A stretch of 64,000 bases of DNA from Sphingomonas sp. IC081 (GTDB lineage Bacteria > Pseudomonadota > Alphaproteobacteria > Sphingomonadales > Sphingomonadaceae): the NCBI RefSeq assembly GCF_006874585.1, contig NZ_CP029761.1:3746001-3810000 (forward strand). Reading direction: 5' to 3'. The position numbers and the translations under genes are program-made. The notes under the pieces are model-generated. The model was not told the origin of the DNA. It searched no databases and worked only from the letters and a program-made list of their open reading frames with translations. How positions within the stretch are numbered: the first letter of the stretch is position 1; every line of letters starts with the position of its first letter. This document shows positions 17,558 to 28,560 of this stretch, piece after piece.

Positions 17558-17636
17558 TGCTTTCTCCCATGCGGCGCATGGCGCGCCTCGTTGGGAACAG
17601 GGCTAAACGGAAAGGGGGCTTGACGGGAAGAGTGAG

Positions 17637-17654
17637 TTTGAACGTTTGTTCAAA
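17637..17654. promoter_or_regulatory. TetR-type palindromic operator upstream of the SDR gene
   Basis: Perfect 7-bp arms TTTGAAC and GTTCAAA are separated by 4 bases, 80 bp upstream of the SDR start. This is the form often bound by TetR-family repressors of acyl-CoA genes. Function is inferred from shape only. Confidence 0.45.
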
Positions 17655-17690
17655 TTTCGCGGGGGCGTAGGGGAAGAGAAGAAAGAGAAG

Positions 17691-18133
17691 GATTCTGGGG
17701 GATGATCCCCCAGACCCGCAAAGCGTCTTCGTTGGGCATCGCCTATCCGTAGTGCGCTCCTTGCGGCGCAGCCAATGCGTCTCCCGACGCAGCCATGGGC
17801 GCACAACGCTGTTGGCCCGCGTGACCTAGGTCGTAAACTCATAAACGGCACCATCGAGGCGCCCAAATGGCGAACAGCTCGGGCCGAAGTTGCCGCCGGG
17901 CGGGCTGGTTGCCCGTCCAAGGCCGCTTCGGTTCGAGATGGAAGCCATTTGGGCGCCCCTTCGGGGTTTGCCCAAAATGGCCCAGCGCTGCGTCGGGAAG
18001 TCTTGAAATATCGACATATTCCAGCGCCTTCCCTCCTGACGCTGAGCCATTTTGCCTCAAACCTCGATGGTGCCGTTTATGAGTTTACGACCTAGACGGT
18101 ATCGGGGGGGGCAGGGGGGCTATGCTCCCCTGC
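17691..18133. repeat. Dispersed intergenic repeat, copy A (split by a MITE)
   Basis: The left part (17691-17829) aligns with 27520-27650, and the right part (18092-18133) continues the alignment at 27647-27683, including the hairpin GCAGGGG...CCCCTGC. A second hairpin, CTGGGGG...CCCCCAG, starts the left part at 17695-17713. No coding potential is seen. Confidence 0.75.
17830..18091. mobile_element. 262-bp MITE-like element with perfect 30-bp terminal inverted repeats
   Basis: The first 30 bases (starting GTCGTAAACTCATAAACGGC) are the exact reverse complement of the last 30. The element is flanked on both sides by CTAG, as expected of a 4-bp target duplication of IS5-type transposases. A second internal inverted repeat (GCGCCCAAATGGC near 17860 and GCCATTTGGGCGC near 17943-17955) is also present. 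It is too short to encode a transposase and has no convincing gene. A related locus at 27647-27650 shows a single CTAG at the same point, i.e. the empty site. Confidence 0.85.
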
Positions 18134-18148
18134 TTTATCCTTAGTTCT

Positions 18149-19600
18149 TCAAGCCGGCTTGATACCCATGCAGAGGTATTTCACCTCCATGTAGTCATCG
18201 AGGCCGTAGTGCGATCCTTCACGCCCGAGGCCGGACTGCTTGACCCCGCCGAACGGCGCCACTTCGGTGGAGATGAGCCCGGTGTTGATGCCCACCATGC
18301 CCGCCTCCAGCGCCTCGGCCACCCGCCAGACGCGGCTGAGGTCGCGGGCGTAGAAGTAGCTCGCCAGGCCGAACTCGGTATCGTTGGCCATGCGGATGGC
18401 ATCGGCTTCGTCGGTGAAGCGGATCACGCCCGCCAGCGGCCCGAACGTCTCCTCGCGCGCCAGCTTCATGTCCGGCTTCACGCCCGCCACCACGGTGGGG
18501 TTGAAGAACGAGCCGCCGCGTTCGTTGCGCTGGCCGCCCGCCAGTACCTTGGCCCCTCCGGCGATGGCATCCTGAAGGTGCTCCTCGACCTTCTCGACCG
18601 CCTTCTCGTCGATCAGCGGGCCGACTTCGGTGCCCGCGTCCATGCCGTAGCCGACTTTCATGGCCGAGACGCGCTTGGCCAGCTTCTCGACGAATGCGTC
18701 GTAGACGCCGTCCTGCACGTAGAAACGGTTGGTGCACACGCACGTCTGTCCGCCGTTGCGGAACTTGGAGATCATCGCCCCATCGATCGCGGCATCGACA
18801 TCGGCATCGTCGAACACCAGGAACGGCGCGTTGCCGCCCAGTTCCATCGAGGTCTTCTTGATCGTCTCGGCGCATTCGCGCAGCAGGTCGCGGCCGATCT
18901 CGGTGGAGCCGGTGAAGGTCAGCTTGGCGACCTTGGGGCTCTGCGTCAGCGCCGAGCCGATCTGCCCGGCGCTGCCGGTAACGACATTGACGACGCCCGC
19001 CGGAATGCCCGCCAGTTCGCACAGATGCGCGATGGCGAGCGCGGAATAAGGCGTGGCCGAGGCGGGCTTGATGACGATCGTGCAGCCCGCCGCCAGCGCC
19101 GGGCCGAGCTTGCGGGTGATCATCGCATTGGGGAAGTTCCAGGGCGTGATCGCGGCGACGACACCGACGCCCTGCTTGATGACGACGATGCGGCGGTCGG
19201 CGGCATGGCCGGGAATGGTGTCGCCATAGGCGCGCTTGGCCTCTTCGGCGAACCATTCGATGAAGCTGGCGCCATAGGCGATCTCGCCGCGCCCTTCGGC
19301 CAGCGGCTTGCCCTGTTCGCGGGTGAGCAGTTCGCCGAGGTCGTCCTGATGCTGGATCATCAGGTCGAACAGCCTGCGCATCAGTTTCGAGCGTTCGCCC
19401 GCGGTCCTGGCGCGCCATGCGGGAAGCGCGCGCTCGGCAGCCTCGATGGCGCGGCCCGTCTCGTCCGCACCCATCTTCGGCACCGTGCCCAGCACCGCAC
19501 CGGAGCCGGGATCGGTCACTTCGAACGTCGCCCCGCTATCGGCATCGCACCACTGGCCGTCGATGTAGCACTGCTGACGGAGAAAATCGGTGAAAGCCAT
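18149..19600 (-). CDS. NAD(P)-dependent succinate-semialdehyde dehydrogenase-like aldehyde dehydrogenase
   Basis: A 483-residue aldehyde dehydrogenase, the typical length. The Rossmann part has ITPWNFPNAMITRK and the nucleotide loop FTGSTEIGRDLL. The general base is E253 in SMELGGNAPF and the catalytic cysteine is C287 in NGGQTCVC. The closest recognisable group is GabD, which oxidises succinate semialdehyde to succinate, but related enzymes take other omega-aldehydes. The start at ATG 19600 (MAFTDFLRQQ) was chosen because the 48 residues upstream look unlike the family. It reads leftward towards the MITE-containing gap. Confidence 0.88.
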   Translation of the reverse strand: MAFTDFLRQQCYIDGQWCDADSGATFEVTDPGSGAVLGTVPKMGADETGRAIEAAERALPAWRARTAGERSKLMRRLFDLMIQHQDDLGELLTREQGKPLAEGRGEIAYGASFIEWFAEEAKRAYGDTIPGHAADRRIVVIKQGVGVVAAITPWNFPNAMITRKLGPALAAGCTIVIKPASATPYSALAIAHLCELAGIPAGVVNVVTGSAGQIGSALTQSPKVAKLTFTGSTEIGRDLLRECAETIKKTSMELGGNAPFLVFDDADVDAAIDGAMISKFRNGGQTCVCTNRFYVQDGVYDAFVEKLAKRVSAMKVGYGMDAGTEVGPLIDEKAVEKVEEHLQDAIAGGAKVLAGGQRNERGGSFFNPTVVAGVKPDMKLAREETFGPLAGVIRFTDEADAIRMANDTEFGLASYFYARDLSRVWRVAEALEAGMVGINTGLISTEVAPFGGVKQSGLGREGSHYGLDDYMEVKYLCMGIKPA

Positions 19601-27504: not shown

Positions 27505-27683
27505 GCCCTTCGACCAGCTCAGGAGATCCCCCAGACCCGCAGAATGTCTTCGCCGCGCGCCACCTGGCCGGAGTCCGCCCCTTGCGGCGCAGGCAATATG
27601 TCTCCCGACGCCGCCATGAGCGCGCAACGCGGTTGGTCCGCGTAACCTAGACGATATTGGGGGTGCAGGGGGGCTATGCTCCC
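27505..27683. repeat. Dispersed intergenic repeat, copy C (intact, empty MITE site)
   Basis: This fills the gap between the convergent LLM and LysR genes. It starts with CCCTTCGACCAGCTCAGG, includes GATCCCCCAGACCCGC and TTGCGGCGCAGG, and ends with the hairpin GCAGGGG...CCCCTGC at 27665-27687. It matches copy A over most of its length and carries one CTAG at 27647-27650. Confidence 0.75.
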
Positions 27684-27687
27684 CTGC

Positions 27688-28560
27688 TTATTCCTTTTCT
27701 TCCCGATACAGCCGGCGCAAAATCTCCAGAAAAGCGCTCCGTCTCGCGCTCCCGGCGTGCAGCAGTCCCACCTCGCGCGTGAGTTCGAAATCGCGCACCG
27801 GCACGAACTGCACCGAGCCATCGGCGAACCCCTCCGGCATCATCCCGACCCCGGCGCCGCTGCGGATCACTGAGAGAACGCGCTCGTCGCTGGTGGTCTT
27901 GAGCACGAAGCGCGGGCGGACGCCGCGCTGGGTGAAGAAGCGGTTGATCTCCGGCAGGGCCTCGCAGTGGCGGCGCAGCGCCATGCGGTCCCTCGCGAGT
28001 TGTTCGGCGAGAATTTCGCGCTCGGCGGCCAGGGGATGGTCGGGCGGCAGTACCATCATGTAGCGTTCGCGGGCGAGGACCTCGGGCTGGTAGCGCGCGT
28101 GGTGGGGGCGAACGACCGTAAGGGCCACGTCGATCCGCCCGCGCTCCAGTCGCTCGGCAAGATCGCGCTCGCTGCCGTCGAGCAGTTCGAGCGCTTCGCC
28201 GCCGCCCTGTTCGTTATGCTCGGTCAAGGCGCGGCGTATCACGTAGGTCGGAATGGTGCCCAGCACGCCCACGCGCAGCAGGCTTGGTTCGGCGGCCTCG
28301 GCCAGTTCGACCAGCGCGTGCTCGTATTCGGCGGCGATGCGGCGGGCGCGGACGAGGAAACGGCTTCCCGCCGGAGTCAGGGCAACGCGCTGGCGATCCC
28401 TGTCGAACAGGCGCGCGCCCAGTTCGCGTTCCAGCTTGGCGATCCCGGCGGAAAGCGTCGGCTGGGTGACGCTGACCGCCCGCGCCGCGCGGCTGAAATT
28501 GCCGGTTTCGGCCACGGCCAGGAAATAGCGCAGCAGATATTGGTCGATCATAGGTGTCAT
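27688..28560 (-). CDS. LysR-family transcriptional regulator
   Basis: A 290-residue LysR-type regulator. The N-terminal winged helix-turn-helix is [44 protein letters not shown] (about residues 8-50), and a periplasmic-binding-protein-like effector domain follows from about residue 90. It is divergent from the acyl-CoA carboxylase operon, with a 116-bp shared region that holds a perfect palindrome, so it very likely controls that operon and itself. The start may be ATG 28560 or ATG 28551; neither has a strong ribosome site. The stop lies just outside the copy C repeat. Confidence 0.9.

Follow-up and report, generated by a model that had tools for sequence, protein, structure and literature searches.

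A family of miniature elements in Sphingomonadales with a conserved foldable core and different matched end pairs resembling those of IS5-family insertion sequences

Introduction

In most accounts a bacterial MITE derives from a single insertion sequence (IS) and is recognised by its conserved ends. The ISs of the IS427 group of the IS5 family are autonomous, 0.8-1.3 kb in length, and consist of orfA (DUF4096) and orfB (DDE_Tnp_1). The MITE described here shares with them the outer ~20 bases of its ends, the flanking TA and YTAR-like targets, but it has no transposase and its arms are alike over all 31 bases.

Small elements of other bacteria offer partial parallels. In the sections consulted of its description (PMC6382973), MITEAba12 of Acinetobacter is identical to its presumed helper ISs only in the terminal repeats, and any of several ISs could mobilise it. 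Unlike the present MITE it is 113 bp long and AT-rich, makes 9-bp duplications and shows little divergence between copies, and those sections describe no exchange of ends. RUP of Streptococcus pneumoniae, as portrayed in excerpts of PMC2229807 and PMC3049150, is likewise small and structured, uses TA targets and has ends like those of a resident IS, but its helper is of the IS630 type, its length is 107 bp and it has one end type. The Correia or NEMIS elements of Neisseria resemble the present MITE in their terminal TA, long terminal repeats (24 bp there) and stable transcript folds, according to the relevant parts of PMC2229807 and PMC10969869, while differing in taxon and sequence.

Here we describe a MITE from a window of 64,000 nucleotides (the whole stretch of DNA analysed) of the genome of Sphingomonas sp. 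IC081, together with its copies and relatives. Judging from sequence comparison, it is very probably moved in trans by transposases of the IS427 group of the IS5 family, and it belongs to a family in which a conserved core is combined with different matched end pairs.

Results

An earlier note on this DNA had proposed a noncoding 262-bp MITE with perfect 30-bp inverted ends. The type of element and its perfect inverted ends held, while its size had to be corrected: the MITE is 264 bp long (17829-18092, GG...CC) and has perfect 31-bp terminal inverted repeats. The features of the locus, in window positions, are:

17704..17829, + strand: left part of the host repeat R2, recipient of the element (C1:3763704-3763829)
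17827..17828, no strand: left TA of the target duplication, target CTAG
17829..18092, + strand: MITE, 264 bp, GG...CC
17829..17859, + strand: left terminal inverted repeat, type A ends, 31 bp
17860..17955, + strand: core hairpin P2, in the consensus fold and the single-sequence fold
17956..17966, + strand: small hairpin CCCC-TTC-GGGG, in the consensus fold
17973..18054, + strand: core hairpin P3, an inverted pair, in the consensus fold and the single-sequence fold
18062..18092, − strand: right terminal inverted repeat, 31 bp
18093..18094, no strand: right TA of the target duplication
18090..18135, + strand: right part of R2 (C1:3764090-3764135)
27505..27689, + strand: R2 copy with the empty site, a single CTAG

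The arms appear longer than 31 bp because CTAG is a palindrome; 34 nt are 100 % complementary (17826-17859 and 18062-18095). The second internal inverted pair that had been noticed previously was borne out, with pairs at 17858-17957 and 17973-18054. The window contains the 18-base end at two places, and none of 100 shuffles contains it at all. In the 123 elements compared below position 1 is G in all and position 2 is G in 99 %. The element is shorter than about 500 bp, has terminal inverted repeats and IS-like ends, is free of transposase, and occurs in dispersed copies with a target duplication, as is characteristic of MITEs.

On the + strand of the window element one frame is open across all 88 codons. 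The same frame is open in 44 of the 91 elements of 264 bp, compared to 3.9 % of base shuffles, and is interrupted by stops in the other 47; it is not conserved as such, and its reading as a gene was rejected. The right repeat read on the + strand gives VYEFTT, which may be compared with VYESTA at the transposase C-terminus of a matching IS. No promoter or terminator pattern was found inside the element, two terminator-like matches at 18114-18131 (shuffled mean 0.9) being located outside it. A search of 17600-18300 only (701 bases) against Rfam 15 gave nothing at the curated score, the sub-threshold match being MIR839 (29.6 bits compared to 200).

The host repeat R2, ~185 bp long and intergenic, is likewise dispersed: it gave 32 matches in the genome, some of which are pieces of one copy. 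The paralogue at 27505-27683, which had been named as the empty site, was confirmed as such: 27505-27690 aligns with the flanks of the element and contains one CTAG at the insertion point, which supports insertion into a paralogous repeat. Since R2 is itself a dispersed family, this empty site is one of many, and of 18 aligned R2 copies without the element, 10 have CTAG at the site and 8 have a variant. Another R2 copy (C1:2783435-2783865) is also occupied by a MITE at the same site and in the same orientation, with nothing similar outside R2 plus MITE. With the elements removed, the flank pairs of the two occupied copies are 86.7 % identical over 211 bp, whereas their MITEs differ at 6 of 264 positions and have unlike nearest copies in the genome, L002 for the window element (3 differences) and L008 for the other (5 differences). 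These figures favour two probably independent insertions into the same R2 site over the alternative of a shared origin followed by conversion. At the orthologous locus of the relative G006 both flanking genes are present and both MITE and R2 are absent.

Blast searches found 22 full-length copies in this genome, 20 with type A ends and 2 with other ends. The type A copies are 82-100 % identical; in the remaining two, L021 and L022, the core matches and the ends differ. Broken copies are also present (L023 with L025, L024 with L027, and L026). When up to 3 mismatches were allowed, the 19-base end gave 53 matches in this genome (27 forward, 26 reverse) and its reversed control none. The earlier note had made its reading depend on further copies or matching IS ends, and both were found, the former as the 22 full-length copies and the latter in relatives and on plasmids.

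Beyond this genome the family spans several Sphingomonadales genera. Matches were obtained in 28 of the 98 genomes searched, its own included. The exact 19-base end was found in one of 397 genomes drawn from the family, which is its own, and also in G047 and G056, both outside that draw. A scan of genome contigs for a 20-base core motif gave at least 101 stretches. Among the matches listed, 85 of 101 such stretches passed the arm filter, distributed over Novosphingobium (60), Stakelama (9), Sphingobium (6), Parasphingopyxis (4), Altererythrobacter (2) and stretches without a genus assignment (4); Sphingopyxis was added through plasmid matches. Stretches labelled as Verrucomicrobiia, Brevibacterium and Pedobacter, again among the matches listed, yielded no inverted-repeat element and probably arose by chance. 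In viral contigs the end had no match, and the one contig with the core motif yielded no element.

A longer form of ~285 bp, in which 21 bp (CTTACGGTGAGCTTCGCTTG-like) are added between the two hairpins, is represented by three type A copies of this genome (L016, L019, L020) and by N. clariflavum copies. Isolated ends of this genome were examined in 11 regions, where no partner end completing an IS matched at more than 13 of 20 bases within 2.5 kb inward. Three of these (L082, L083 and L085, near 2228, 2745 and 2119, minus strand) are relics of ~22 bp of the form GG(T/C)CGT...ACTCAT...GCGGCC or ACGGCC, of which two are bordered by TA or TAG-like sequence, and they resemble MITEs shrunk by deletion between short ACGG repeats; the other eight ends are partnerless.

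The flanking CTAGs had been taken for the target duplication. They are indeed present, but the duplicated unit is TA alone, inside a YTAR target. A 4-bp duplication is incompatible with the other copies of this genome, because the four bases on their two sides are often unlike: where TTAG on the left is combined with CTAG on the right, or CTAG with CTAA, only TA is common. TA stands exactly on both sides of 106 of the 141 elements with well-paired arms, and the targets rebuilt from these are CTAG (52), CTAA (22), TTAG (15), TTAA (12), TTAT (4) and CTAT (1), i.e. YTAR in 101 cases. Base composition showed no strong preference outside the four target bases. One copy of this genome (L006) has TTA on its right side, possibly a 3-bp duplication or an extra T. 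IS5-group elements usually make YTAR duplications and those of the IS427 group TNA-like ones.

At one locus (L009 and L096, C2:928440-929691) an IS630 copy sits immediately next to a MITE copy, inserted at its CTAG edge; the two kinds of element share this target.

For the relation of the targets to genes, we used the 85 insertions that are bordered by TA at both ends and have 600 bp of flank distinct from that of the others, from which 4 with non-YTAR targets were removed. The remaining 81 sites form 78 similarity clusters and are therefore mostly independent. With the element removed, 30 of the 81 targets lie on a predicted stop codon, while among 207 further YTAR sites of these stretches the number is 11 (Fisher p 8.6e-11). 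The genes were predicted with our own small codon-usage script trained on the window in place of a tested gene caller. One of the sites, L009, is better dropped, since it is a stop site only through the abutting IS630; this leaves 29 of 80. The predicted excess persists at stricter gene cut-offs with smaller absolute numbers (22, 11 and 6 of 81 compared to 7, 4 and 2 of 207, L009 included). Genes enter from the two sides in 17 and 13 cases (16 and 13 without L009), and in all 12 cases read the stop codon after insertion is TAG, made of TA and the G of the element. Insertion on a stop codon would be tolerated from either side because TA and the first G of the element form this codon. A scan of 10 stop-site genes gave Pfam matches for 8 (weak for L013) and none for 2. 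Those of this genome include a sulfatase and a TspO protein, and for an aldehyde dehydrogenase, a response regulator and an AMP-binding enzyme the match reaches the end of the last domain. Either target choice or the survival of harmless insertions may account for the excess.

For comparison of the elements, 159 loci were taken into extraction, of which 9 gave no element (no anchor or a contig edge). At least 22 of 31 arm positions match in 141 of the 150 elements. A stricter filter (24 of 31 and at least 255 bp) left 139, and removal of identical elements 123. Both arms are of type A in 79 of these, of type B in 35 and of neither type in 8, while one element joins an A arm to an arm of neither type and none joins A to B; nor does any of the 11 elements failing the stricter filter. 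The two arms of one element agree at 96 % of positions. Comparison of A with B elements gives a mean identity of 49.5 % for the outer 24 bases and of 79 % for the cores. In the closest pair of unlike type, L300 (B, Novosphingobium sp. MD-1) and L310 (A, Novosphingobium sp. SCN 66-18), the cores are 98.5 % and the ends 46 % identical, and on both sides the alignment shows a sharp break at the CGAGG edge, with length constant. Similarly, L141 (B) and L394 (A), both from MD-1, have cores that are 98 % identical. On the maximum-likelihood tree of the cores, 17 changes between A and B are needed (15-17 in bootstrap trees), at least 6 of them forced by well-supported branches, whereas shuffled labels need 30.3 and none of 500 shuffles was as low as observed. 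The near-identical cores with unlike ends and the 17 changes on the tree indicate that, as far as sequences can tell, ends and core are inherited partly apart, and not at random.

The consensus fold of the 123 elements (RNAalifold) consists of a closing stem P1 formed by the ends, the large hairpins P2 and P3 and one small hairpin. In this fold 97.2 % of cells pair and both sides have changed in at least 2 sequences in 62 of 88 pairs; the figures for P1 lean upward because the paired-arm filter favours it, which does not apply to P2 and P3, and near-copies are counted many times. When the partners were slid by 1-3 columns, pairing dropped to 32-46 %. Conservation of the core columns is similar whether unpaired (0.87) or paired (0.86). 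As RNA the window element folds with -171.5 kcal/mol (z -15.6), mostly due to the arms, and its core as DNA has z -6.2. The small hairpin (17956-17966) is absent from the single-sequence RNA fold and formed in the DNA fold. The ratio of G-T to A-C cells is 53:44 in P1, 105:25 in P2 (three mostly G-T pairs excluded) and 10:37 in P3. No single transcribed strand is indicated, since the counts in P2 and P3 favour opposite strands.

The outer 20 bases of the type A end match the left ends of TA-flanked ISs of Sphingomonas paeninsulae and Novosphingobium sp. MBES04 at 18 positions. Both were reached through plasmid searches. The former has GGTCGTGAACCCATAAACGG as its left and GGCCGTAGACTCATAAGCG as its right end, with 823 bp between the TAs; the latter begins with GGTCGTAAACTCATTAATGG and is 1170 bp long. 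Plasmid searches also gave a full-length matching element in Blastomonas, and in G006 the contigs break inside a multicopy IS beginning GGCTGTAGACTCATAAACG, which reads as a transposase C-terminus ending in VYESTA. The genome studied here has two copies of an 836-bp IS with the ends GGCTCAGGACCCATTG and GGCTCAGGACTCACTG between TA dinucleotides, the frames of which match DUF4096 and DDE_Tnp_1 and are assigned to the IS5 family by NCBIfam. The ends of L021 and L022 match this resident IS at 16 of 20 positions, their first 14 bases being those of its left end GGCTCAGGACCCATTG. The IS copies are flanked by cta or tta, so that the TA/YTAR target is common to IS and MITE, and the right ends of the ISs match the MITE less well than the left ends. 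Related copies from Agrobacterium bear the annotation 'IS5-like element IS427 family transposase', and the group name used here comes from this annotation and not from comparison with ISfinder. These full-length IS5-family, IS427-group elements with matching ends in relatives and on plasmids support the IS5-type parent that had been suggested for the element.

An IS with an A-type transposase was not found in this genome, G047 or G056 (E up to 0.001), the best matches being 38-43 % identical; within that search, the helper of the 20 type A copies is not resident now. The core showed no convincing similarity to seven ISs of the IS427 group (best E 0.036), i.e. no IS interior is retained, and origin of the MITE as an internal-deletion derivative of such an IS was not borne out. 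Nor do the MITE ends match the IS5_3 elements of this genome, whose ends are AGAGCCC or AGAGGCC.

Discussion

The reading of the element as a MITE is based on the TA duplication within YTAR, ISs of the same genus with similar ends, many dispersed copies and empty sites. In the proposed mechanism, transposases of the IS427 group would move the element in trans, and each end pair may let the core use another transposase, so that the family need not die with one IS lineage. Elements within the same cell could recombine or undergo gene conversion to bring about the exchange, the conserved CGAGG/CCTCG edges marking its limits. Either the ends or the cores may be the replaced part, and conversion of the core between resident elements would fit the data as well as replacement of the ends. 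IS ends of both types, A and B, occur in the genus, and the two sets resemble those of different lineages of the IS427 group.

Alternatively, the ends could have become unlike gradually, by substitutions that tracked the specificity of transposases as these slowly diverged; conversion within the element would have kept its arms alike, and no modules would have been exchanged. There are indeed other end types, intermediate ones among them (8 of 123 elements are neither A nor B on both arms), the end types cluster on the core tree (17 changes compared to 30.3 in shuffles), and with 96 % arm identity something must keep the arms of an element alike. However, the near-identical cross-type pairs speak strongly against drift, as ends with 46 % identity over 24 bases are joined to cores with 98.5 and 98.0 % identity. 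The change is moreover abrupt at the same edge on both sides, and substitution would have to rewrite both ends while sparing ~200 bp. We regard gradual drift as improbable. Still less can be said for an IS630/Tc1-mariner transposase as the mobiliser, which the TA duplication and the CTAG-like targets would suggest. Seven near-identical IS630 copies with CTAG at their edges are present in this genome, but their ends (TAGTGGATTGACTCC...) are unlike those of the MITE, whereas IS427-group ends do match and have the same TA flanks, which makes this mobiliser extremely unlikely.

It is also conceivable that the core is a structured RNA or DNA serving the host or itself, e.g. an element of mRNA 3' ends, and that mobility is its means of spread. 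The pairs changed on both sides in at least two sequences (62 of 88, with P1 favoured by the choice of elements) and the unpaired core columns, conserved like the paired ones, are in line with such a function; and as 29 of 80 insertions are directly on a stop codon, the fold would there begin the 3' untranslated region. Against it, genes enter about equally from either side (16 and 13 without L009), the wobble counts of P2 and P3 point to opposite strands, and the element lacks a promoter or terminator pattern. In addition, the sites differ between genomes (78 of 81 unrelated) and the one orthologous locus examined, that of G006, is without the element. A functional core of this kind therefore seems rather unlikely to us. 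Returning to a MITE moved by IS427-group transposases, its core may tentatively be seen as the persisting unit, which is structured, occurs in several Sphingomonadales genera, repeatedly changes its ends and helper and settles on stop codons that it rebuilds itself; we give this broader view a little less than an even chance.

The reading as a MITE served by an IS5-type helper is sound, and an element of this sort is nothing out of the ordinary. Exchangeable end modules, a core fold conserved across genera and a preference for stop codons go beyond the earlier note. The open-access literature searched, in the portions considered (including PMC11578231, PMC10969869, PMC6382973, PMC2229807 and PMC3049150), holds no description of this family or of MITE-end exchange, and interchangeable ends on a conserved core and stop-codon sites are beyond that literature to the same extent. 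With a conserved interior and two ends that vary jointly between elements, the family amounts to a natural experiment in how a non-autonomous element may switch helpers. It can now be tested whether a 26-bp end pair suffices for such a switch, and whether the core itself plays a part. Insertion at stop codons offers a straightforward explanation of why 266 bp of added DNA need do no harm.

Two further arrangements were seen among the related sequences. Some IS427-group elements have an extra gene between their ends (L233 321-1593 and L231 423-1593), which is SMI1/KNR4 (SUKH) in Agrobacterium and a hypothetical gene in Novosphingobium MBES04. On the Sphingopyxis indica plasmid pMC4 (L399 1501-2700), a type A MITE, another IS5-family IS and the start of a type B end stand in a row joined at CTAG sites.
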